Origin: Flammeovirga sp. SJP92
GTDB taxonomy: Bacteria > Bacteroidota > Bacteroidia > Cytophagales > Flammeovirgaceae
Direction of reading: 5' to 3'
Assembly: GCF_001583495.1 (NCBI RefSeq)
Contig: NZ_LQAQ01000098.1
Span: forward strand, 1-64,000
Length of the DNA stretch: 64,000 nt
Shown: piece after piece, positions 43,279-63,208 of the stretch
How the letters are laid out: each line of letters begins with the position of its first letter
Position numbering within the stretch: position 1 is the stretch's first letter
Notes under the pieces: generated by a model
Seen by the model: only the letters and a program-made list of their open reading frames with translations
Database searches by the model: none
What the model was told of the DNA's origin: nothing
Program-made: the position numbers and the translations under genes

Positions 43279-43980
43279 TTACATTTTGACTGCAATGGAT
43301 AATATAGAAATGGTCTTAGCTCCACTTTTAACCAGTGTTCTTCCTAAAGACTCCACAGTTGCACCTGTAGTTAACACATCATCCACTATCAGGATATTCT
43401 TACCAGAAACAACTTCTGGAAGTGGAATCGTAAAGACATCCTCCATACTTTTCAACCGTTGCTCTCTAGATTTTTTGGTCTGCGATGTAGTATACTTTAC
43501 ACGCTTTACGGCCTTCTTATTGTAAGGAATATTGGTTATGGTAGCAATAGACTCACATAACACATCAACCTGATTATATCCTCTTTCTTTGTTTCTTTTA
43601 GTATGAAGTGGCACAGGGACAATTACATCTATATCCTCAAAAAATGTTTTCTTCTTATGATCAAGGTAAAAATCTGCAATCCACTTTCCTATCCTCTGAT
43701 TTCCTTTGTATTTTAAATTATGAATTAAGCTCTGAACCACCGAAGAATTTTCAAAAACAAAAAAAGAAGCTGCTTGTTTCAAAGGTAATCTGAATTGAAA
43801 TTTATTGGTGATATAGTTATCTTCAGATAAATCCCAGCTGAAAGGATAGCTAATTATTTCAAAATGACATTTAAAGCAAAGTATTTCTTCCCCCTCTTTT
43901 AGAAGCGAATCACAATGAACACATGTCTTAGGAAATAGGCTGTAGAAGATTAAATCAAAAAGTTTAGTAATATTATGCAT
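43279..43980 (-). CDS. comF: ComF-family phosphoribosyltransferase-like protein
   Basis: A cytoplasmic protein of the ComF/GntX family, needed for natural transformation in several bacteria. A four-cysteine zinc ribbon at the N terminus (CVHC and CFKC, C20/C23/C35/C38 in this numbering) is followed by a type-I PRTase fold with the PRPP loop ILIVDDVLTTGAT near the C terminus. I start at the ATG at 43980, giving MHNITKLFDLIF as in other ComF proteins. A longer frame begins at 44031, but a good -7 element (44011-44018) lies inside it, so transcription would start downstream of that ATG. Length is 233 residues. It is divergent from the conserved hypothetical at 44052. Confidence 0.9.
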   Translation of the reverse strand: MHNITKLFDLIFYSLFPKTCVHCDSLLKEGEEILCFKCHFEIISYPFSWDLSEDNYITNKFQFRLPLKQAASFFVFENSSVVQSLIHNLKYKGNQRIGKWIADFYLDHKKKTFFEDIDVIVPVPLHTKRNKERGYNQVDVLCESIATITNIPYNKKAVKRVKYTTSQTKKSREQRLKSMEDVFTIPLPEVVSGKNILIVDDVLTTGATVESLGRTLVKSGAKTISILSIAVKM

Positions 43981-51479: not shown

Positions 51480-51495
51480 TGTTCCACGTGAAACA
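51480..51495. promoter_or_regulatory. parS-like site 1
   Basis: TGTTCCACGTGAAACA matches the widely conserved chromosomal parS consensus TGTTNCACGTGAAACA at all 16 positions. parS binds ParB for chromosome segregation. Confidence 0.85.
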
Positions 51496-51517: not shown

Positions 51518-51533
51518 TGTTCCACGTGGAACT
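51518..51533. promoter_or_regulatory. parS-like site 2
   Basis: TGTTCCACGTGGAACT has a perfect 14-bp palindromic core, GTTCCACGTGGAAC. It is the symmetric version of site 1, whose end is 22 bp away. Confidence 0.75.
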
Positions 51534-51991: not shown

Positions 51992-52007
51992 TGTTCCACG
52001 TGGAACT
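51992..52007. promoter_or_regulatory. parS-like site 3
   Basis: TGTTCCACGTGGAACT, identical to site 2, ending 19 bp before the mnmG ATG. Between them is AAGGAG, one of the few clear Shine-Dalgarno sequences in the window. Confidence 0.75.
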
Positions 52008-52026: not shown

Positions 52027-53901
52027 ATGTATCCATCTTATGACGTTATTGTAATTGGCGGAGGACATGCTGGATGTGAGGCTGCACACGCTGCTGCAAA
52101 CCTTGGATCTAAAGTATTACTGATTACAATGAATATGCAAACCATCGCTCAGATGAGCTGTAACCCAGCCATGGGTGGTGTTGCTAAAGGACAAATAGTA
52201 AGAGAGATTGATGCTCTTGGAGGTATGTCAGGTATTATCACAGACAAGTCTATGATTCAGTTCAGAATGCTGAACAGATCTAAAGGACCTGCAATGTGGA
52301 GTCCAAGAGCTCAGAGTGATAGAATGGTATTTGCTCAAGAGTGGAGAGATGCTTTAGAAGCAAATCATAATGTAGATATATGGCAGGAAATGGCGACCGA
52401 AATAGTAATGGAAGGTGATAAAATCACTGGAGTTAAAACTAGCTTGGGAGTTGTTTTCAATACCAAATCTGTAGTACTGACAAACGGTACTTTCTTAAAT
52501 GGCTTGATCCACATCGGTGAAAAGCAATTTGGAGGTGGGCGTAGTGGCGAACATGCTGCTAAAGGTTTGACAGAACAATTAGTACAATTAGGTTTTGAAG
52601 CAGGTAGAATGAAGACTGGAACTCCTCCAAGAGTTGATGGCCGTTCATTGAATTGGGAGAAAATGCAAGAGCAGGCAGGTGATCAAAACCCTGAGAAATT
52701 CTCTTTTTCTGACAGTACTTCTACACTAACAAAACAACGTAGCTGCTTCATCACTTATACTAGTAATGAAGTGCATGATATCTTGAAGACTGGCTTCGAT
52801 AGATCACCAATGTTCAACGGTAGAATCCAGGGTTTAGGTCCAAGATATTGTCCTTCTATTGAAGATAAAATCAACCGTTTTGCAGAGAGAGATCGTCATC
52901 AGATCTTTGTGGAGCCGGAAGGATGGAACACTTGTGAAATGTATATCAATGGTTTTTCTACATCACTTCCTGAGGATGTACAGTACAAAGCACTTCGTAA
53001 AATTGAAGGTTTTGAAAATGCGAAGATGTTCAGACCAGGTTATGCCATTGAATATGACTTCTTCCCTCCTACCCAACTGAAGGCTACTTTGGAAACGAAG
53101 CTTGTAGAGAACCTTTATTTTGCGGGGCAGATTAATGGTACTACAGGTTACGAAGAAGCAGCTTCTCAAGGTTTGATGGCAGGTATAAATGCTCACAATA
53201 AGATCAATGAAAGAGAGCCTTTCGTATTGAAAAGATCGGAAGCTTATATCGGTGTTCTTATTGACGACTTGATCAACAAAGGAACAGAAGAGCCATATAG
53301 AATGTTTACGTCTCGTGCGGAGTACAGAATCTTGTTGAGACAAGATAATGCCGATTTAAGATTAACGCACTTAGGGCATCAATTAGGTCTTGCTTCTGAT
53401 GAACGTTTTGAAGCGGTTCAGAAGAAAAAAGAGCAAATTGAAAAAGCTACTGAAGTCTTAAAAGAGACAAGTGTGAAGGTCAGCAATGCCAATCCTCATC
53501 TTGAAGAAAGAGGTTTACAGACGATGAACCATGGTTTGAAAGCTGATAAATTCTTGAAGAAAACGAAGGTAGATATGGCGCTTACTTTGGAAAGTGCTCC
53601 TACTCTAAAAGAAGCTTTTGAAGGTTTTGGAGAGAAAGCATTAGAGGAAGTAGAGATCCTTTTGAAGTATGAAACATACATTGAGAAGGAAGAAAAGATT
53701 GCTGAGAAGTTAACTACTTTGGAGAACTATAAAATTCCTGAAGGATTTGACTATAGACAAATCAATGCTTTATCTGCTGAATCAAGAGAGAAACTTACAC
53801 GAGTTGCTCCACTTACATTAGGTCAGGCATCAAGAATTTCAGGTGTTACACCTGCAGATGTTACCATCTTAATGGTCTACCTTGACAAGCAAAAAGCGTA
53901 G
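52027..53901 (+). CDS. mnmG: tRNA uridine-5-carboxymethylaminomethyl enzyme MnmG (GidA)
   Basis: With MnmE, modifies the wobble uridine (U34) of several tRNAs, using FAD and a folate one-carbon donor. The FAD-binding motif is VIGGGHAGCEAA near the N terminus; RGPAMWSPRAQ-type text (SKGPAMWSPRAQSDRM) and NGTTGYEEAASQG are family signatures. At 624 residues it is the normal length. The ATG is preceded by AAGGAG. mnmG/gidA is the classical neighbour of the replication origin in many bacteria, which fits the parS-like sites upstream and the DnaA-box region about 4 kb downstream. Confidence 0.97.
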   Translation: MYPSYDVIVIGGGHAGCEAAHAAANLGSKVLLITMNMQTIAQMSCNPAMGGVAKGQIVREIDALGGMSGIITDKSMIQFRMLNRSKGPAMWSPRAQSDRMVFAQEWRDALEANHNVDIWQEMATEIVMEGDKITGVKTSLGVVFNTKSVVLTNGTFLNGLIHIGEKQFGGGRSGEHAAKGLTEQLVQLGFEAGRMKTGTPPRVDGRSLNWEKMQEQAGDQNPEKFSFSDSTSTLTKQRSCFITYTSNEVHDILKTGFDRSPMFNGRIQGLGPRYCPSIEDKINRFAERDRHQIFVEPEGWNTCEMYINGFSTSLPEDVQYKALRKIEGFENAKMFRPGYAIEYDFFPPTQLKATLETKLVENLYFAGQINGTTGYEEAASQGLMAGINAHNKINEREPFVLKRSEAYIGVLIDDLINKGTEEPYRMFTSRAEYRILLRQDNADLRLTHLGHQLGLASDERFEAVQKKKEQIEKATEVLKETSVKVSNANPHLEERGLQTMNHGLKADKFLKKTKVDMALTLESAPTLKEAFEGFGEKALEEVEILLKYETYIEKEEKIAEKLTTLENYKIPEGFDYRQINALSAESREKLTRVAPLTLGQASRISGVTPADVTILMVYLDKQKA

Positions 53902-54054: not shown

Positions 54055-55812
54055 ATGAACTTAACCTTAAGAATAATAATTTCTGTATATATACTTTTTA
54101 CAGTGTATGCTTGTGCTGTCATCTCCTCTCCTACAGGTGGGCCAAAAGATGAGATACCTCCAAGGTTTGGTGCCAGTACTCCATTCAACGGACAAACAAA
54201 TGTGGATACCACTAAACTAAAGATCACACTTTATTTTGATGAATATGTACAGGAAGAAAAGTTAAGACAGAACTTAATTATTACCCCATACAAACCTACT
54301 TTCCAATACAAATCAAGATTTGCAAGAAACAAAGTAATTTTAAATATTCTGGATACACTAGAACAGGATATGACTTATTACTTTGATTTCGGAAACTCGG
54401 TAGTCGATGTTACAGAAAAAAACCCGGCAAAAAATGTTCGCTTTTCTTTTAGTACTGGTGATTATTTAGACTCACTAGAAGTAACGGGACAAGTCAGAGA
54501 TTTACTAACTGACGAGCCAATCGAAGGAGCAATTATCGCTTTATATAATCCGTATGATTCATTAGATGTCAATACAGATCCTCCTGTTTATTTTTCAAGA
54601 ACTGTAAAAGATGGTTTATTTATATTAGAAAGATTTAAGCCTGGATATTATAAAGTATACTGTATAGATGATACAAACGGAGATTATAAATATACTTTGA
54701 GAGAAGAACGTATTGGTTTCTTCAAAGACTCTCTCCTACTCGATAGAAATATTGATGACGTACAATTATATATCAGAGATTATGATTTGGTACCATTCGA
54801 ATTCAAAAATGTAAAAGTTGAAAATAAAGAAGATTTGATTGTCAAATTCAACAAGTATGCTGTTGAATACGGAATAGAATTTCCGGAGAATAATTCATTT
54901 ACTGATAGTATTTTCCATCAAGATCAAAAAGGAGAAATCAAATTACTTTACATTGGTGAAAGAGACATGGAAGATTCTTTAAGAATGACAGGATATGCAA
55001 TTGATTCCATAGAGCAAAGAATTGAATTTGATACCATGATTTTATTTCCTAGTAGAGCTGAAATCAGAGCAGAGGAAAGAAAAGAAAAGAATAAAAAGAA
55101 TGGAGGTTTGATTGGTGGAGCCCTAAAAACTTTAGGTGATGCAGTTGGAGCTACTGAAGAAGAAGAAATAGAAATTGTAAGAATTAAATTCGAAAAGAAA
55201 TTACCAGAAGATAGTGATTTAATTCCAGAAGATAGTGTAGATGTTGTACTGCAATTTCCTTTGCCAATGAAAGAGTGGAATCTTGACAGTATGTATTATG
55301 TATACAGTGAAGACACCACAAGATTGGATAGTATTCTAATTGAAAAAGATTTAGAGTTTAATTTTAATCACACAGAAGTAAGTTTTCCTAAGTTTTATGC
55401 AGACTCAGCCTTCAGTCTTATTTTCACCGACAATGCATTTGTATCTGTAAAAGATGATTCAACAAAAGCCAAAACACTTAGCTTTACAATCAAAGAATTG
55501 GATAAGTATGGAATTATTGAAGGACAAGTTGTAGGTAGCCATGATAGCTTTATTGTACAATTAGTTACCCCAAAAGGAGATGTTGTACAAGAAGTACAAA
55601 ACGAAAGGTTATTCTCTTTTGAATATGTAAAACCTGGTACTTACGGAATCAGAGTTTTGATTGATGAAAATAATGATGGGATTTGGTTCCCTGGAGATTT
55701 TGAAAAAAGAATTCCTCCAGAATCAACAGCATTCTTCCCTAAAGAAATTAAAGTTGAAGCCAACTGGGAAATTCGAAGAGAAGACACAATCATAAATACT
55801 GATAAGAAATAA
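54055..55812 (+). CDS. Big_5/Ig-like domain lipoprotein
   Basis: A 585-residue lipoprotein. Residues 1-19 form a signal and C20 in FTVYAC is the lipidated cysteine. Directly after is SPTGGPKDEIPPRF, the GGPKD-x-x-PP motif of a Bacteroidota family with an N-terminal Big_5 (Ig-like) domain (about 35-135). A carboxypeptidase-regulatory-like domain (about 140-200, VTGQVRDLLTDEPIEGAIIA) follows, then a long mixed region and a second such domain near the C terminus (EGQVVGSHDSFIVQLVTPKG). Likely on the outer membrane; function unknown. It is the last gene before the origin region and ends at a terminator. Confidence 0.85.
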   Translation: MNLTLRIIISVYILFTVYACAVISSPTGGPKDEIPPRFGASTPFNGQTNVDTTKLKITLYFDEYVQEEKLRQNLIITPYKPTFQYKSRFARNKVILNILDTLEQDMTYYFDFGNSVVDVTEKNPAKNVRFSFSTGDYLDSLEVTGQVRDLLTDEPIEGAIIALYNPYDSLDVNTDPPVYFSRTVKDGLFILERFKPGYYKVYCIDDTNGDYKYTLREERIGFFKDSLLLDRNIDDVQLYIRDYDLVPFEFKNVKVENKEDLIVKFNKYAVEYGIEFPENNSFTDSIFHQDQKGEIKLLYIGERDMEDSLRMTGYAIDSIEQRIEFDTMILFPSRAEIRAEERKEKNKKNGGLIGGALKTLGDAVGATEEEEIEIVRIKFEKKLPEDSDLIPEDSVDVVLQFPLPMKEWNLDSMYYVYSEDTTRLDSILIEKDLEFNFNHTEVSFPKFYADSAFSLIFTDNAFVSVKDDSTKAKTLSFTIKELDKYGIIEGQVVGSHDSFIVQLVTPKGDVVQEVQNERLFSFEYVKPGTYGIRVLIDENNDGIWFPGDFEKRIPPESTAFFPKEIKVEANWEIRREDTIINTDKK

Positions 55813-55845
55813 AGTTGAGTTAAATAGTAACTAAAAATACTTTCG

Positions 55846-55877
55846 AAAAAAGTGAGCAGTAATGTTCACTTTTTTTT
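55846..55877 (+). terminator. Terminator of the Big_5 lipoprotein gene
   Basis: AAAAAAGTGA (55846-55855) pairs with TCACTTTTTT (55866-55875), followed by more T's. Confidence 0.85.
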
Positions 55878-56564
55878 GTCTTTACAATCAAATACAGAAT
55901 ACTTCTCTTTATACATTGTAAACTAAAATTTATTGCATTTAAATCTCCTGATTTCTAAAATCTATAAGGCACGAATGAAGCTAAGCCATTCGCTTAACAT
56001 TCTAGCCAATAGACTTCTTCTGTATAACTTACTCATCTAGTTTAATAGTGTTTCTTTCAGCCTTATGGGAAAAGTATGAAGAATTTCATGTATTGTTCTG
56101 GTAAAATGATTTTCTTATTTGGGTTAAATTAAAGCGAGTTCAAAATGTATTCAGTTAGATACTAACACTAAAAGACATTATGTTGATAAGTAATAGAATT
56201 TGTATCAAAAACCATACAGTGTCTAAACAGTAACTTTTTTAAAGTGATTCTATTTTCTAAGCCCTCTTTATTTTAAGATCAAAAAACGAGATGAAAACCA
56301 TATAGATATAGTTTTGAGGGACTAAAATGAATTTCTACTCTTGAACTTTAAGAACATAATTAATTTTGATATTATGTCAGCTAATACTCTCACCAGTATT
56401 TTATTTCTCCTTTCCAAAATTAGAGTTGAACAAGATCACTCCTATTTATATTCTTTTTTGTGAATCTTGAATAAAAAGCTGGTTTACAGTAAACATAATA
56501 CTATACCTTAAATGAATAAAAGGTTATCAGAATCAGGAACATTTTTTTATTCTAACTCTCCTAT

Positions 56565-57482
56565 TGTGGATAATCAACAAAATTTACTCATAAAATAACC
56601 GTATTATCATCAAAAAATAAACATATGTAGAAAGAAGTGTGAATAACATTTTATTGTATCAAAACATTAAAAATTTATTTGATAATAGAACATATATACT
56701 ATCAATTATAGGCCTTTAGATAGTTAAAAACAGCATTTATGAGCTAATTGCATATTAATCAGTGATATAGGTAATAGAACTATAATATAACTTTAAATCT
56801 TATTTACTAACATTAATTATTCAATTTTGTGAACAAGTTTTGAAGTTATCAACAGACTTATCCACAATTGAGGTATTTCATAGTATATTCACGCATTTAT
56901 ACACACATATTATGGTATATTAAGTAGAAAATAAATACTTAACTAACTGATTATATGATACTTAATATAATAATAGTATTATTTATAAACATATGAACAA
57001 TACATGAATTCACAGGATGTTCATTGTTTAAAGCAATTTTTGACATATTCTGATACTCTACATGAGTTTATGACTTCCATAAAAGTATAGGAGCAATTGA
57101 AAATAATTGGTGAAATGGTAGTGTTGATAAATCTTGGAAATGCGCTGTGATTTTTAGGCGCAAAAATGATTGATAAATAAACAAAGTATGTATATTGATA
57201 GTATACAAAAGAGTTATTCACTGTTTTTATCCTATTTGGTTAAAAAATTGTACACAAAGGATATTTATTCATAAGTTATCCACATTATTCACAGCATTTT
57301 TACACAAAATTGTGATTAGTGAGTAATATGTTGAATAAGCGTTGATAATATCCACAGTAATTCACAAATGGCTCTTATTCACACTATTCACAAGGGTGTT
57401 TATAAAGTGATGTGACTAAAAATGGCGCTTTTAAACACATGAATTAACTGAATAACTTCTGAGTGAATAATAGTGTGAATAC
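56565..57482. other. Predicted chromosomal replication origin (oriC)
   Basis: Seven exact TTATNCACA DnaA boxes: 56565-56573 (-), 56638-56646 (-), 56858-56866 (+), 56897-56905 (+), 57276-57284 (+), 57285-57293 (+) and 57375-57383 (+). Many one-mismatch copies lie around them, for example 56846, 57122 (-), 57214, 57248, 57298, 57348, 57358, 57384, 57462 (-) and 57474 (-). By a hand estimate at about 30% GC, fewer than one exact match is expected per 10 kb. The stretch is A+T-rich and gene-free, mnmG is nearby and parS-like sites lie 5 kb away, all of which fit oriC. dnaA itself is not in the window, which is not unusual in this phylum. Confidence 0.82.
57214..57482. promoter_or_regulatory. DnaA box array, origin core
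   Basis: Eleven exact or one-mismatch DnaA boxes in 269 bp. Nine point the same way (57214, 57248, 57276, 57285, 57298, 57348, 57358, 57375, 57384) and the last two the opposite way (57462, 57474). Two pairs abut with no spacer: 57276-57284/57285-57293 and 57375-57383/57384-57392. GCGCTTTT (57425-57432) and AAAAGCGC (57488-57495) form an inverted repeat bracketing the reversed boxes. The tandem array is where I would expect DnaA-ATP filament formation. Confidence 0.75.
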
Positions 57483-57664
57483 TGTTGAAAAGCGCTATAA
57501 ATCTTTGTTTTTGAATAGTTTAGGCGGTTTATAAGGCAATAGCAAATATGTTTATAAGTGGGTAAAACCTGTTGGTATGTGCAGTTATCAACTTATAAAC
57601 ACCCCTAATAACAATAAAAGAGAATTTTAAATTTTTATTTTTTTATAATCTATTAAAGAGTTAA

Positions 57665-59506
57665 ATGTTGAAAACCTTATTTGGTCAAAAAAAAACGTAT
57701 CTCTATTTTTTCCTTTGTTTTATTATTTCTCAATTCAGTTGGGGACAAAGTAAAACAGATGAGAAGTTAAACTTAGCCCAGGAATATTATAAAACGGAAG
57801 AGTTTGATAAAGCCCTTGAACTGTATAGGGACTTAATTAAAAACAAAGAACTGATAAGTCAGATCCACGAAAACTATCTTTCGGTTCTTTTAAAAAAAGA
57901 AGAACTCAAGGAAGCTGAGAAGTATTTAAAAAAGGTGGTGAAGAATAATCCTGATAATTCAATGTATAATGTGGATTATGCAAGGGTGAAGTTGATAGAG
58001 AAGGATACGCTTTCTGGTGACAAGATCATGGAGACGTATATTAAGCAAGTTGCAAACAATACTACAAAGCTGAGATATGCTGCTTTGTATTGTATTGATC
58101 TTGGGTTGTTCAATTATGCGGAACAATGCTACAGAACCGGAGAGAAGAATCAGGGAGAGACTTTCTTTTATGAACTGGCAGATCTTTATTCCAATTGGGG
58201 AAAGTATGAGCAGATGATTGATGAGTATATGAAATTGCTGTTCATAAAACCTGATCAGCTTGAATATGTGGAGATGGCTTTGCAGGATCGGTTGACAACT
58301 GAAGAGAAATTTGAGCTTATCGAACCACAGTTACTCACAATGGTGCAGAAGAACGCTGGTATGACGGTCTTCAATGAACTGATCGTTTGGTACTACTTAC
58401 AGCAGAAGAAGTTCTACGCGGCATTTATACAGGCTAGAGCGTTGGATAAGCGTCTTAGGCTGGAAGGTTACAAGATTCTTGAGATAGGGCGTCTAGCGAA
58501 GAATAACAAGGACTATAAGAACGCCTCTAAGATATTCCAGTACTTGGTGGATAGGTACAAAGAGTATGCAGTGTATCCGATGTCTAGAAAGTTGTTGATA
58601 GAAACGAAGGAGGAGATTATCAAAAGTACCTACCCTATCGACAGAGATCAGATTAATTCGCTGGTAAAAGATTATCAACAGATCATTGATGAAATTGGTG
58701 TAAATGGACAGACAGGTGATGCTTTGAGGAATATGGCATTGCTTCAAGCTTTCTATTTAGATGAAAAAGATAAGGCAATTGTGGAATTAAAGGAACTTAT
58801 CAACAATCGTTCAATTCCAAAGTCATTAGTTTCACAAGCTAAGCTGGATCTTGGGGATATCTATTTGCTTCAGGACAATCCTTGGGAAGCTTCACTACTT
58901 TATTCACAAGTAGCTAACAGTAATCGTGAAATGACGATTGGTCATATGGCAAAACTCAAGAATGCAAAGCTTTATTACTATACGGGTGATTTTCTGTTGG
59001 CACAATCACAATTAGATATCTTAAAGCTCGCTACATCTAGAACGATCAGTAACGATGCTATGGCTTTATCTTTGTTGATAAGTGATAATCTTAACCTTGA
59101 TACCACTTCTTTAGCCATGGAACAGTATGCGGCTATTGATTTGTTGGTATTTCAAGGAAAATATGTGGAAGCGATAGAGAGTTACGAACAAATGTTAGTA
59201 AAATTCAAAGGACACCGTTTATCTGATGAAATTCTTTGGGAAAAAGCACATTTGTTGATAAAATTGGGGAATTATGAACAAGCCACTGAACCTTTGAAGG
59301 AAATTGTGGAGTTTTATGGTTATGATATTCTAGCTGACGATGCACATTATCTCTTGGGGACTATTTATCAAGATCATCTGAATGATAAAGAATCGGCTAT
59401 GAATTACTTCAAGGATATTCTGATCAAGTTTAAAGGTTCAAGCTATGAAGTGGATGCCCGTAAGCGTTTCAGGGCACTTAGAGGCGATAATGTGAACAAG
59501 TCGTAG
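57665..59506 (+). CDS. Secreted TPR-repeat protein
   Basis: A 613-residue exported protein with a signal peptide (about 1-27, ending SWGQ) and TPR-type helix pairs through most of its length: KLNLAQEYYKTEEFDKALEL (about 35-54), LLKKEELKEAEKYLKKVVKN, KLDLGDIYLLQDNPWEASLLY and LVFQGKYVEAIESYEQML. Near the C terminus LADDAHYLLGTIYQDHLNDK and YEVDARKRFRAL resemble tol-pal/BamD-like repeats. Probably a periplasmic scaffold; no specific function assigned. It begins at the right edge of the predicted origin, and its terminator hairpin contains two DnaA boxes. Confidence 0.85.
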   Translation: MLKTLFGQKKTYLYFFLCFIISQFSWGQSKTDEKLNLAQEYYKTEEFDKALELYRDLIKNKELISQIHENYLSVLLKKEELKEAEKYLKKVVKNNPDNSMYNVDYARVKLIEKDTLSGDKIMETYIKQVANNTTKLRYAALYCIDLGLFNYAEQCYRTGEKNQGETFFYELADLYSNWGKYEQMIDEYMKLLFIKPDQLEYVEMALQDRLTTEEKFELIEPQLLTMVQKNAGMTVFNELIVWYYLQQKKFYAAFIQARALDKRLRLEGYKILEIGRLAKNNKDYKNASKIFQYLVDRYKEYAVYPMSRKLLIETKEEIIKSTYPIDRDQINSLVKDYQQIIDEIGVNGQTGDALRNMALLQAFYLDEKDKAIVELKELINNRSIPKSLVSQAKLDLGDIYLLQDNPWEASLLYSQVANSNREMTIGHMAKLKNAKLYYYTGDFLLAQSQLDILKLATSRTISNDAMALSLLISDNLNLDTTSLAMEQYAAIDLLVFQGKYVEAIESYEQMLVKFKGHRLSDEILWEKAHLLIKLGNYEQATEPLKEIVEFYGYDILADDAHYLLGTIYQDHLNDKESAMNYFKDILIKFKGSSYEVDARKRFRALRGDNVNKS

Positions 59507-59570
59507 GTAAAAGTGTATAAGACTTCGATTTTTAATGAAATATTGTTTTTATAAAGCATTTATCAAGTTC

Positions 59571-59579
59571 TTATCCACA
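59571..59579 (+). promoter_or_regulatory. Outlying DnaA box
   Basis: TTATCCACA, an exact consensus match 65 bp after the TPR gene. Confidence 0.6.
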
Positions 59580-59720
59580 ATGCGTTTATAATTTGTCCAA
59601 AACAGATAAAAAATCAGGAATTTATTCAGAAACTGTGAGTAATTGATTGAAAAAAGGTGTTTGTAACCCAGTTTTCACAATTCACAGCATAAAATATAGA
59701 GAATAAGCAGTTTATTCAGT

Positions 59721-59778
59721 AAAAAGAGAAAGTTATTCACAGTTATGTAGGCTAATTGTGAATAACTTTCTCTTTTTT
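59721..59778. terminator. 21-bp-stem terminator hairpin carrying two DnaA boxes
   Basis: The arms 59721-59741 and 59757-59777 are perfectly complementary over 21 bp around a 15-nt loop, starting with an A-run and ending with a T-run, so the hairpin works as a terminator in both directions. The inner 9 bases of each arm are exact DnaA boxes in inverted orientation (TTATTCACA at 59733-59741, TGTGAATAA at 59757-59765). It closes the TPR gene. Confidence 0.88.
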
Positions 59779-59826
59779 GTGTATAAAATCAATAGAAAAT
59801 CGTCTGAAATTAGAATCTTATCAACA

Positions 59827-59862
59827 AAAAAGGGATACTCCGTGAAGAATATCCCTTTTTTT
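59827..59862 (-). terminator. Terminator of the methyltransferase gene
   Basis: AAAAAGGGATA and TATCCCTTTTT flank a short loop with the sequence around CTCCGTGAAGAA. On the minus strand the stem ends in a T-run (complement of the A's near 59827). Positions are accurate to a few bases. Confidence 0.75.
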
Positions 59863-59890
59863 ATGTCTTGAAATCGTAAAATTGATGTGA

Positions 59891-60628
59891 TTAACTTTTC
59901 TGAACCACGAAAATCATACGGTCTGATGTCTCTTTATCGAAAGAATTCAGCTTATAATCCCCAAAAATGTTGATAACTTTCAGATTTACCTGCTCAAATA
60001 GGTTTAAGAATGCTGTTTTTCTTAATGCTTCTACCCTTTCTGTGAATATATAATGCTTTCCTTTGTCTGTAAATTCAATTTGCTTCATTACATGACGGTT
60101 ATTTAAAAACTTATGCACATTAAAAGAAAGTTCAGGACGCTCAATCACCGTTTTTTCAGGCAGACTGCTCAATACTTTATAGGTATTGAAATAATCTAAC
60201 ACTAAAACGCCATTTTCCTTTAAACTGTGGGCAATCATCTTTAAAGCGGCTAAATCTTCTTCTTCAGTCTCGAAATAACCGAAACTTGTGAATAAGTTGA
60301 GCACAAAATTGTATTCCTGCTCTTTATAAAGTTCACGCATGTCATGTACATTGAATTTCAATCTTTCATTTTCAAATTCACGGGCATGTTGAATACTTTC
60401 TGTAGAAAGGTCGATTCCCTCCACATCAAAGCCTTGTTTGTTTAAGAAAATAGAGTGTCTTCCTTTTCCGCAAGCTAGATCGAGTACTTTGTCGTTTTTT
60501 GAGATACCTAAATGATCAGAAAGTGCACACATAAACTGTTCTGCTTCATTAAAGTCTCTGTTCTGATATAGAATGTGATAATATGGCGTATTAAACCATT
60601 GATCAAACCATTCTTCTCCCTTTTGCAT
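59891..60628 (-). CDS. Class I SAM-dependent methyltransferase
   Basis: A cytoplasmic methyltransferase with a Rossmann SAM-binding fold. Motif I is VLDLACGKGRHSIFL, followed by VEGIDLS (acidic end of strand 2) and FNVHDMREL. The opening EEWFDQWFNTPYYHILYQNR matches a common family of small-molecule/unknown-substrate methyltransferases in Bacteroidota. I start at the ATG at 60628, giving MQKGEEWFDQWF (245 residues). A longer frame from 60673 begins inside a palindrome (60667-60689) and adds a sequence unlike the family. The substrate is unknown. Confidence 0.87.
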   Translation of the reverse strand: MQKGEEWFDQWFNTPYYHILYQNRDFNEAEQFMCALSDHLGISKNDKVLDLACGKGRHSIFLNKQGFDVEGIDLSTESIQHAREFENERLKFNVHDMRELYKEQEYNFVLNLFTSFGYFETEEEDLAALKMIAHSLKENGVLVLDYFNTYKVLSSLPEKTVIERPELSFNVHKFLNNRHVMKQIEFTDKGKHYIFTERVEALRKTAFLNLFEQVNLKVINIFGDYKLNSFDKETSDRMIFVVQKS

Positions 60629-60666
60629 TTTATTCACTAGTTTATATTTTTCAGAGGTAGATCTTA

Positions 60667-60689
60667 AGAGCATGTTTTAAACATGCTCT
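60667..60689. repeat. Perfect 23-bp palindrome, copy 2
   Basis: AGAGCATGTTT (60667-60677), a single T, and AAACATGCTCT (60679-60689). It is upstream of the methyltransferase start and resembles the imperfect palindrome at 39963-39985, also upstream of a minus-strand gene. Confidence 0.7.
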
Positions 60690-60800
60690 AAGTCAAAATA
60701 AAAACTCATCTTTTTTCTCATTGTTTTATAAATACTCCCTTAAATGCATTCTTTAATGTCGTACTCACAAAAAATTAATAAGAACGAATGATAAACTTAT

Positions 60801-60833
60801 TTTGGCTTAGTACTAAAACAACTATTACCTTTG
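60801..60833 (+). promoter_or_regulatory. Distal rightward promoter upstream of metG
   Basis: TTTG (60801-60804), a 21-bp spacer and TACCTTTG (60826-60833) fit the Bacteroidota consensus with a spacer 2 bp longer than usual. Transcription would start near 60840, immediately before a hairpin. Confidence 0.5.
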
Positions 60834-60845
60834 TGCTGTTTTGAG

Positions 60846-60872
60846 AAAATTATACCCCGAAAGTATAATTTT
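60846..60872 (+). terminator. Attenuator-like hairpin
   Basis: AAAATTATAC (60846-60855) pairs perfectly with GTATAATTTT (60863-60872), followed by CATTTTTA. It lies only a few bases after the predicted start from the distal promoter. Confidence 0.45.
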
Positions 60873-60962
60873 CATTTTTAGGGATCAAACCAATTTTGAT
60901 TACTGTTCATAAGTTTTTGAAAATTCCCCTTTTTTTATTGAAAATTCACGATTTTCGTTAAG

Positions 60963-60995
60963 TTATCAACAATTTGAAGCTCGGAGTGTGAATAA
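60963..60995. promoter_or_regulatory. Inverted DnaA-like box pair
   Basis: TTATCAACA (60963-60971, one mismatch) and TGTGAATAA (60987-60995, exact on the minus strand) face each other across 15 bp, within AAGTTAT...ATAACTTT. The same layout occurs at 59733-59765. Confidence 0.55.
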
Positions 60996-61066
60996 CTTTG
61001 ATTTCCAATGCTGAAATCATCTGTAAATCAGTATTAATAGGTGGTGAATAACAATTTCAAAATGTT

Positions 61067-61074
61067 TATCTTTG
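61067..61074 (+). promoter_or_regulatory. -7 element of the metG promoter
   Basis: TATCTTTG followed by CAACGG, a typical Bacteroidota -7 region. It gives a metG leader of about 60 nt. The -33 region has no TTG. Confidence 0.65.
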
Positions 61075-61144
61075 CAACGGCTTATCGTCAGTAAGAAATT
61101 GACCGCCTAGTCATCTTAAAAGCATAGAAATTTAAAGACAATCC

Positions 61145-63208
61145 ATGTCAAAACATTACAATAGATATACCGTAACTGCGGCATTGCCGTATGCAAACGG
61201 ACCTTTACACATTGGACATATCGCGGGTGCTTATTTACCTGCTGATATTTATGTAAGATCATTACGTCAGAAGGGAAAAGATGTAGCGTTTATTTGTGGT
61301 AGTGATGAGCACGGTGCAGCGATTACTATTCGTGCACAGAAAGAGGGAATTACGCCTCAAGACATCATTGAAAAATACAATAAACAAATTGGTGATACAT
61401 TTAAGAAGTTTGGAATTGCTTTTGATTTGTTCCACAGAACTTCTGCTCCTGTTCACCATGAAACAGCTCAGGATTTCTTCAAGACCTTAAATGATAATGG
61501 TGAGTTTGAATTGAGAGAGTCTTCTCAGTATTATGATGAGGAAGCAAAACAATTCTTAGCTGACAGATATATTGTTGGTACTTGTCCTAAATGTGGTCAT
61601 GATGCGGCTTATGGTGATCAGTGTGAAAAATGTGGATCTTCTTTAAGTCCAACAGATTTGATCGACCCTAAATCTCAGATTACGGGTAACACTCCTGTTC
61701 TTAAAACAACTCGTCACTGGTACTTGCCAATGAACAAGCACGAGGATTGGTTGCGTGAGTGGATCAATGAAGGTACTTTAGAAGGTAGAGAACATCATAC
61801 GCCTTCGGAGTGGAAAAATTCTGTTTTGGGTCAATGTAGATCATGGTTGGACCAAGGTTTACAACCTAGAGCGATGACTAGGGATCTAGATTGGGGTGTA
61901 AAAGTGCCAGTGGAAGGTGCAGACGGAAAAGTTTTATATGTGTGGTTGGATGCTCCTATTGGATACATTTCAGCAACAAAAGATTGGGCGGCTTCTCAAG
62001 GTAAAAACTGGGAGGACTATTGGAAAAAAGCAGATACGAAATTAGTTCACTTTATTGGTAAGGATAACATCGTATTCCACTGTTTGATTTTCCCTATCTT
62101 ATTGAAATCTCATGGTGAATTCATTTTACCGGACAACGTTCCTGCCAATGAATTCTTGAACCTTGAAGGTGCAAAGTTATCAACATCTCGTAACTGGGCT
62201 GTTTGGTTGCATGAATATTTAGAGGATCTTCCAAATCGTGAGGATGAATTACGTTATGTATTGACATCAATTGCTCCTGAAAATAAGGATTCTGAGTTTA
62301 CTTGGAAAGATTATCAAGAGCGTGTGAATAACGAGCTAGTTGCTATTTTAGGTAACTTTATCAACAGAGCGGTTGTACTTACTCACAAATATTTCAAAGG
62401 AGAAGTGCCTGTAGCAGGTGAGTTCACTCCAATGGAAGAAGGTATTGTGGCAGAAATGAAAGCCATTCCTCTTCGTGTTGAAAAATTAATCGAGCAGTAC
62501 AAATTCAAAGAGGCTTTAATTGAAGCAATGAAATTGGCTCGTTTAGGTAATAAATATTTAGCAGATACAGAACCTTGGAAATTGTTCAAGCAAGATCCAG
62601 AGTTGGTGAAGACTATTTTGAATATGTCTTTACAGATTGCTGCCAACTTGGCCATTACTATTGATCCTTTCTTACCGAATACGGCGAAGAAAATCCAAAA
62701 CATGTTGGGTATGGAATCATTGGATTGGAACCAAGTAGGAAACCCTGAGTTGATTACTGCTTATGATCGTTTAGCTCCAGCTGAGTTATTGTTCAGTAAA
62801 GTGGAAGATAAAGTGATTGAGGCTCAAATTGAGAAATTAGAGAAAACTAAAATCTCTCAGGCTCCTGTGGAACCTCAAAAAGACGAAACTACTTTTGACG
62901 ATTTCCAGAAAATGGATATTCGTGTAGGTACTATCGTTGAAGCAGAAAAAATGAAGAAGGCGAAAAAGCTTTTGAAATTAACTGTAGATACGGGTATTGA
63001 CAAGAGAACAGTAGTAAGTGGTATTGCGGAGTTCTTTGCTCCAGAAGATATCATCGGAAAGCAGGTTTCTATTTTAGTGAATTTAGCTCCAAGAAAAATC
63101 AGAGGTATTGAATCTCAAGGAATGATCTTGATGGCTGAAGATAAAGACGGAACATTATCGTTTGTTTCTCCTACCTCGCAAATTGCGGAAGGAGGTATCA
63201 TTCGTTAA
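61145..63208 (+). CDS. metG: Methionine-tRNA ligase
   Basis: Charges both initiator and elongator tRNA-Met. The class I HIGH motif is LHIGH (21-25); the KMSKS loop reads KLSTS (344-348), a variant I also know from other Bacteroidota MetG. The connective peptide has a four-Cys zinc knuckle (C147, C150, C160, C163). The C-terminal 110 residues ([20 protein letters not shown] onward) are the EMAP-II/Trbp111-like tRNA-binding domain. At 687 residues it is full length. A strong terminator follows. Confidence 0.97.

Follow-up and report, generated by a model that had tools for sequence, protein, structure and literature searches.

A cluster of DnaA boxes in a Flammeovirga genome, at positions 56565-57482 of the DNA analysed here, can on sequence grounds be assigned with high confidence to the oriC of its chromosome I. 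The preliminary description of this DNA had put the cluster forward as a candidate oriC, and we found that box conservation, synteny, parS proximity and GC skew all support that proposal by lines of evidence mostly independent of the box count. The best-conserved element of the locus lies just outside the described cluster, directly ahead of the neighbouring gene, and is a candidate site of duplex opening that also led to box clusters in relatives with changed gene order.

The DNA analysed, called the window below, is the first 64 kb of contig C98 (260,872 bases) of a draft genome of 8.49 Mb in 123 contigs. Flammeovirga aprica JL-4 was the nearest named relative in our scan, with 99.7-100% identity in the TPR protein and 93% in the lipoprotein encoded on the two sides of the cluster. 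The available text of PMC8653839 describes Flammeovirga as a genus with two chromosomes and reports dnaA and dnaN on chromosome I only; the terms oriC, replication origin and GC skew had no occurrence in that part of this second-chromosome paper, and the available part of PMC13342612 mentions Flammeovirga only as a multipartite genus.

A cluster of DnaA boxes conserved in position across the genus

The 918 bp between 56565 and 57482 have a GC fraction of 0.253 and hold 23 sites that match TTATNCACA with at most one mismatch, of which seven are exact, as had been described, and 16 carry one mismatch, where at least ten had been claimed. Such numbers are beyond chance: in 1000 first-order Markov sequences modelled on 56565-57482, exact boxes averaged 0.19 (maximum 2) and boxes with at most one mismatch averaged 3.3 (maximum 9), and the 451 exact boxes of the whole 8.49-Mb genome, against 326 for a reversed-pattern control, correspond to about 0.05 expected per 918 bp. 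The surroundings are A+T-rich and gene-free as described, with no open reading frame of at least 80 aa between the end of the lipoprotein gene at 55812 and the start of the TPR gene at 57665. A search of 55800-61200 for RNA elements gave no Rfam match at the gathering threshold.

From 57248 to 57419, nine boxes on the plus strand are followed by two on the minus strand that face them, which bears out the arrangement reported for the core. Both of the reported pairs of boxes without a spacer are real, one at 57276/57285 composed of two exact boxes (TTATCCACATTATTCACA, 57276-57293, plus strand) and the other at 57375/57384 composed of an exact box and a one-mismatch box. At the first pair, both positions were box-like in 9/9 Flammeovirga genomes and the pair was exact in six of the nine; G001 and G006 lack, genome-wide, any same-strand pair of exact boxes within 30 bp, so that the exact touching pair is not universal even in the genus. 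The earlier view of touching boxes as unusual did not hold either, since according to the available text of PMC8287927 a tandem set, defined with at most 3 bp between the boxes of a pair, occurs in 57% of the predicted unwinding modules, more often than any other arrangement.

An alignment of the intergenic region in nine Flammeovirga genomes, our own included, revealed nine positions with a site of at most one mismatch in every genome: 56638 (minus strand), 56846, 56858, 57276, 57285, 57348, 57375, 57397 (minus strand) and 57593. The sequence between these conserved boxes drifts for much of its length while the box positions stay, and the boxes at 57265, 57298, 57431 and 57474 are present in only four of the nine. 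Three other motifs were seen in the region, GGCGCTTTT at 57424-57432, AAAAGCGC at 57488-57495 and GGCGCAAAA at 57157-57165; the first two are largely kept in the genus, and all three are possibly sites of another protein.

Further boxes, missed in the preliminary description, occur at 58900-60987, some of them at positions that the genus conserves. Comparison of the nine genomes showed that, among four exact boxes beyond the TPR gene at 59571-59786, those at 59733, 59757 and 59778 are common to 6/9, 6/9 and 4/9 genomes and that at 59571 to fewer than 4/9. Inside a methyltransferase open reading frame (60041-60295), the positions 60041, 60111 and 60287 are box-like in 9/9, 9/9 and 7/9 genomes, and two boxes before metG (60963 and 60987, spanning 60963-60995) are each kept in 7/9. 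Besides 60041 and 60111, seven other sites beyond the TPR gene are kept in 7/9 or 8/9.

Conserved neighbours and parS sites

The cluster is bordered on the left by a gene for a probable lipoprotein with a Big_5 domain (54055-55812, plus strand; domain search and synteny), which is preceded by the conserved neighbour mnmG/gidA (52027-53901, plus strand; Pfam GIDA, 2.1e-167, and synteny), and on the right by the TPR protein gene (57665-59506, plus strand), which in many of the order's genomes likewise neighbours boxes. The order mnmG-lipoprotein-boxes-TPR is kept in the window and in seven Flammeovirga relatives, a count that leaves out G002, whose locus was too short for mnmG synteny, and it recurs outside the genus, in G009 and G010 from two further genera of the family and in G021 from another family. 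Across the order, 51 genomes had a TPR match and 30 yielded loci, of which 29 were counted (L018, with an upstream flank of only about 525 bp, was left out); the 1.5-kb stretch ahead of the TPR gene held at least eight boxes in 22/29 genomes from several families, the window average being 3 per 1.5 kb. The TPR flank was without a box cluster in the other 7/29 (G039, G020, G037, G052, G018, G013 and G019). In G054 (L023), the array upstream of the TPR gene is strikingly uniform: fifteen boxes within about 320 bp all match the single variant TTATTCACA exactly.

Three parS sites that had also been missed lie between ybeY and mnmG, namely TGTTCCACGTGAAACA at 51480-51495 and two copies of TGTTCCACGTGGAACT at 51518-51533 and 51992-52007, which places three of the four sites of this genome 5-6 kb from the locus. 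A pattern search of 19 genomes found a canonical parS site 5-6.5 kb from the TPR gene in 9/9 Flammeovirga and within about 8 kb of it in 8/10 others (G009, G010, G011, G012, G020, G021, G022 and G023); of the remaining two, G019 has parS and the TPR gene on different contigs, and no parS was found in G018. The available text of PMC7333895 places parS most often near the origin, and a single ParB_N match was found in our genome. The fourth parS-like site, TGTTTCACGTGAAAC at C116:82937-82951, is away from the origin, and single parS-like sites on other contigs were also seen in G003, G004 and G005; these single sites perhaps belong to the second chromosome.

The dnaA gene does not adjoin the locus; in our genome it is on contig C61. 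Its open reading frame (L001:961-2982, minus strand) encodes 673 aa with a long Pro/Gln/Asn-rich stretch ahead of the ATPase domain, and the corresponding frames have 676-699 aa in four Flammeovirga and 492 aa in G009.

GC skew turns near the locus in most chromosomes sampled

The first 30 kb of C98 have a GC skew of about -0.14 to -0.19; past 45 kb the skew is mostly positive, and its cumulative curve is lowest at 43,922, 13 kb from the box cluster. The keto-skew minimum of the contig, at 5.6 kb, runs counter to the oriC reading and was left out of its support. Genome-wide skew was sampled in the chromosomes of relatives, using twenty-one or twenty-two 20-kb stretches in each of four chromosomes (G001, G008, G009 and G021), and a model that starts replication at the TPR locus and ends it on the opposite side was ranked among all rotations. 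The TPR locus ranked 13/260 in G008 (maximum at 120 kb, locus at 105 kb), 10/261 in G001 (4.76 versus 4.752 Mb) and 18/384 in G009 (7.12 versus 7.225 Mb). With the terminus left free, the best origin was at 240 kb in G008 (97% range 120-240 kb; locus 105 kb), 4.42 Mb in G001 (range 4.18-4.94; locus 4.75) and 7.22 Mb in G009. The skew of G021, from another family, does not fit the TPR locus (rank 135/450), and that of G052 is weak, with rank 42/246 for the conserved block described below, 171 for the TPR gene and 122 for dnaA. The skew minimum, which the preliminary description had named as a check on its proposal, falls near the locus in C98, G001, G008 and G009, and the expectation fails in G021.

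A conserved block beside the TPR gene is a candidate unwinding site

The best-conserved element of the intergenic region, at 57585-57616, had been missed; it lies outside 56565-57482. It reads TTATCAACTTATAAACA-CCC-CTAATAAYAATA and is followed by an A+T tract, is among the longest near-invariant stretches, and takes the variant form TTATACACA-GCC in G007 and G008. Its left part (57585-57601, plus strand) consists of two co-oriented weak boxes, TTATCAACT with two mismatches and TTATAAACA with one, which stand in an 8-bp register and have one base in common. A CCC spacer and the triplets CTA-ATA-ACA-ATA follow (57602-57616, plus strand); read 3'-5' on the bottom strand, these are candidate DnaA-trios, the third of which (ACA) is without the central A. 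The strand assigned to the trios would follow, by analogy, from the available text of PMC8287927, in which the 5'-tail encodes the trios, and from the geometry of E. coli. The A+T tract at 57606-57656 is a candidate duplex unwinding element beside the boxes, with a calculated stability within the lowest 0.09% of the 51-bp windows of the 64 kb; by the same calculation, stability is slightly lower still in one window, at 56951. Since the probable unwinding site (57585-57656) falls outside the reported stretch, the origin should be drawn to about 57664, past the right-hand boundary of the preliminary description.

Searching 291 genomes of the order with a pattern of this block gave matches in 30, at one place each, and a reversed control matched in 3. 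In 9/9 Flammeovirga there was exactly one match per genome, just upstream of the TPR gene. Boxes beside the block were counted for all 21 non-Flammeovirga matches, with 40 composition simulations of the upstream 1 kb for each, and in 18/21 the upstream count was above all 40; in the same 18, upstream boxes outnumbered downstream ones (0-5, not simulated), in G035 by only 4 to 3. The upstream counts of G279, G179 and G149 were not above their 40 simulations; the matches in G179 and G149 look like chance, and that in G279 is without box excess. Six other block matches in the genus of G052 (g28) had 24-28 boxes upstream. In G052 itself, from a family in which the gene neighbourhood is different, the block lies between convergent open reading frames 1.16 Mb from the TPR gene and is adjoined by 27 boxes. 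There, the block is thus no promoter, and it predicts a box cluster even though synteny is lacking. These results indicated that the conserved block can find box clusters in relatives with changed gene order.

In layout, the block resembles the basal unwinding system, for which the available text of PMC8287927 requires a co-oriented box pair, no more than 3 bp apart and with at most 2 and 4 mismatches, and a run of three or more 3'-NAN-5' trios within 16 bp of a box. The pair of the window agrees with this rule with its one-base overlap; the window falls short of the three-trio part, as two trios are followed by a TGT break and then TAT. Three trios in a row were present in 3/9 Flammeovirga and 12/21 other loci, compared with a fraction of 0.22 at random positions; two of the trios are supplied by the search pattern itself. 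At +6, +9 and +12, which are outside the search pattern, T was in phase at 36/63 positions versus 12/126 out of phase over all 21 loci, many of which are close relatives. When each genus was represented by a single locus (13 loci), the counts were 14/39 versus 11/78 (p=0.0076), and without Flammeovirga and g28 (11 loci) they were 11/33 versus 11/66 (p=0.054). The trio periodicity is therefore weaker once redundancy among the loci is removed.

Other box clusters and a second conserved cluster

Exact boxes paired within 30 bp, same-strand or convergent, occur at 8 places in our genome, 5 of them on C98 and 4 of these at 56.8-59.8 kb; those outside oriC are on C98, C20 and C19, and triples with TTATNMACA are on C98, C20 and C93. 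By these pair and triple patterns the locus is the single dominant cluster of the genome. The preliminary description had named equally dense clusters as evidence against its proposal, and none appeared in our genome by these patterns; set against this are three exact boxes in 39 bp on C20 and a smaller conserved cluster, 106 kb away in our genome, of which the G007 counterpart has 7 exact boxes per 500 bp versus 4 at the oriC of G007. The clusters at C20:75117-75155 and C19:49167-49271, with three exact boxes each, were rejected as origins because they reach only 6-7 boxes with at most one mismatch per 1-kb bin, versus 19 at 57-58 kb of C98. Three evenly spaced copies of TTATCAACA were seen in 39 bp at G000:C93:731500-731538, and a third small cluster at C98:128471-128662 has three exact boxes including a convergent pair.

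A second box cluster is present beyond the window at C98:164000-164600 (about 4000-4600 of L044), downstream of an RluD-like gene (C98:163311-164012) that was named by eye from its sequence. In 9/9 Flammeovirga, 700 bp of this cluster contain 7-12 boxes that differ from the consensus at one position at most (1-7 exact), exceeding all 60 simulations of each genome (maxima 4-7), and where both lie on one contig (six genomes), the TPR gene is 69-106 kb away. Its box positions are largely not common to different clades, the pattern used found no unwinding block in it, and four outgroups (G009, G021, G020 and G018) have none or one box at that place. A parS-like core, GTTCCACGTGGAA, was seen inside the second cluster of G001 and G006 (L184, L185). 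The second cluster is non-coding, keeps its place in the genus and is distant from oriC, which makes it a candidate datA/DARS-like DnaA control locus.

Proposed mechanism and alternative explanations

In the mechanism that we propose, DnaA would load on the box array at 56565-57482, with the further boxes beyond the TPR gene, and also on the weak tandem pair at 57585-57601. A DnaA-ATP oligomer would extend from the weak pair over the CTA/ATA triplets at 57605-57616 and open the A+T tract up to about 57656, where the helicase would be loaded, and ParB bound at the parS sites 5-6 kb away would segregate the copied origins. We judge it fairly likely that unwinding takes place at 57602-57656 by this mechanism. 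A rival to the mechanism, though not to the oriC reading, is that the duplex opens at another A+T tract, such as 56951-57001 between the groups of boxes, and that the block at 57585-57650 serves the TPR gene as its promoter or leader. The lowest calculated stability at 56951, the position of the block directly ahead of the TPR start codon and the failure of the strict trio rule in the window speak for this explanation, which we nevertheless consider rather unlikely, as the G052 block sits beside a box cluster yet between convergent open reading frames, 18/21 other block matches likewise have their box excess upstream, and the mean majority fraction is 0.67 and 0.77 for alignment blocks from 56932 compared with 0.88 at 57563-57661.

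Two further explanations deny that the locus is the origin. The cluster could be a DnaA-titrating or regulatory locus with the true origin elsewhere, near dnaA or at C98:164 kb, as might be suggested by the location of dnaA on another contig, 1.0-1.2 Mb off in four relatives (G001, G006, G007 and G008), and by the second conserved cluster 69-106 kb away. We regard this as very improbable, because parS, synteny and skew put the origin at the locus described here, only one exact box occurs in the 3.5 kb around dnaA, the pattern used found no unwinding block in the second cluster, and four genomes outside the genus do not have that cluster at its place. It is scarcely credible that the boxes, upstream of the TPR gene as they are, serve only DnaA-dependent control of the TPR or lipoprotein gene, since 23 boxes would be more than a promoter needs, the boxes go on past the TPR gene and inside the next open reading frame, and the G052 cluster is not tied to the TPR gene. 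Returning to the oriC reading, we offer as a speculative extension, doubtful at present, a two-site control of initiation in which the compact, one-base-sharing box pair serves as the unwinding anchor at oriC and a genus-specific datA/DARS-like locus acts from 69-106 kb away; if true, Bacteroidota would have evolved a DnaA control site of their own in the second cluster.

Discussion

The analysis supplies base-level coordinates for a probable origin, its centromere sites and a candidate unwinding site in Cytophagales, names a candidate fragment for replicating plasmids in Flammeovirga, and gives a reference point for the timing of chromosome II relative to chromosome I. The oriC of Escherichia coli adjoins mnmG/gidA and is separate from dnaA, as is the Flammeovirga locus, which differs from it in a longer one-directional box array and in parS sites close by. 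Cytophaga hutchinsonii belongs to the same order as Flammeovirga. According to the available text of PMC5288383, its oriC has been carried on plasmids, and we set it beside the Flammeovirga locus by description, not by sequence. The oriC of Thermotoga maritima, from a different phylum and likewise compared by description and not by sequence, also combines an unwinding element with adjacent DnaA boxes that are bound directionally, according to the available text of PMC10316083.

As described in the available parts of PMC5010248 and PMC4585315, the datA and DARS loci of E. coli share with the second cluster a non-coding group of DnaA boxes at a conserved place away from oriC; unlike them, the second cluster is known from sequence, and it was present only in the nine Flammeovirga among 13 genomes. 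The basal unwinding system, as far as the available texts of PMC8287927, PMC6669920 and PMC10721633 describe it, matches the conserved block in its co-oriented box pair, its short spacer and its triplets with 3'-GAT-5' nearest the boxes, which here are followed by an A+T tract, with the other boxes upstream. The Flammeovirga block departs from that system in that its boxes are weak and have one base in common (8-bp register), that the third triplet is without the central A in six of the nine Flammeovirga, and that it is not next to dnaA. Taken beside these systems, the locus is very probably an origin of an ordinary kind, to which a candidate opening site conserved among relatives is now added.
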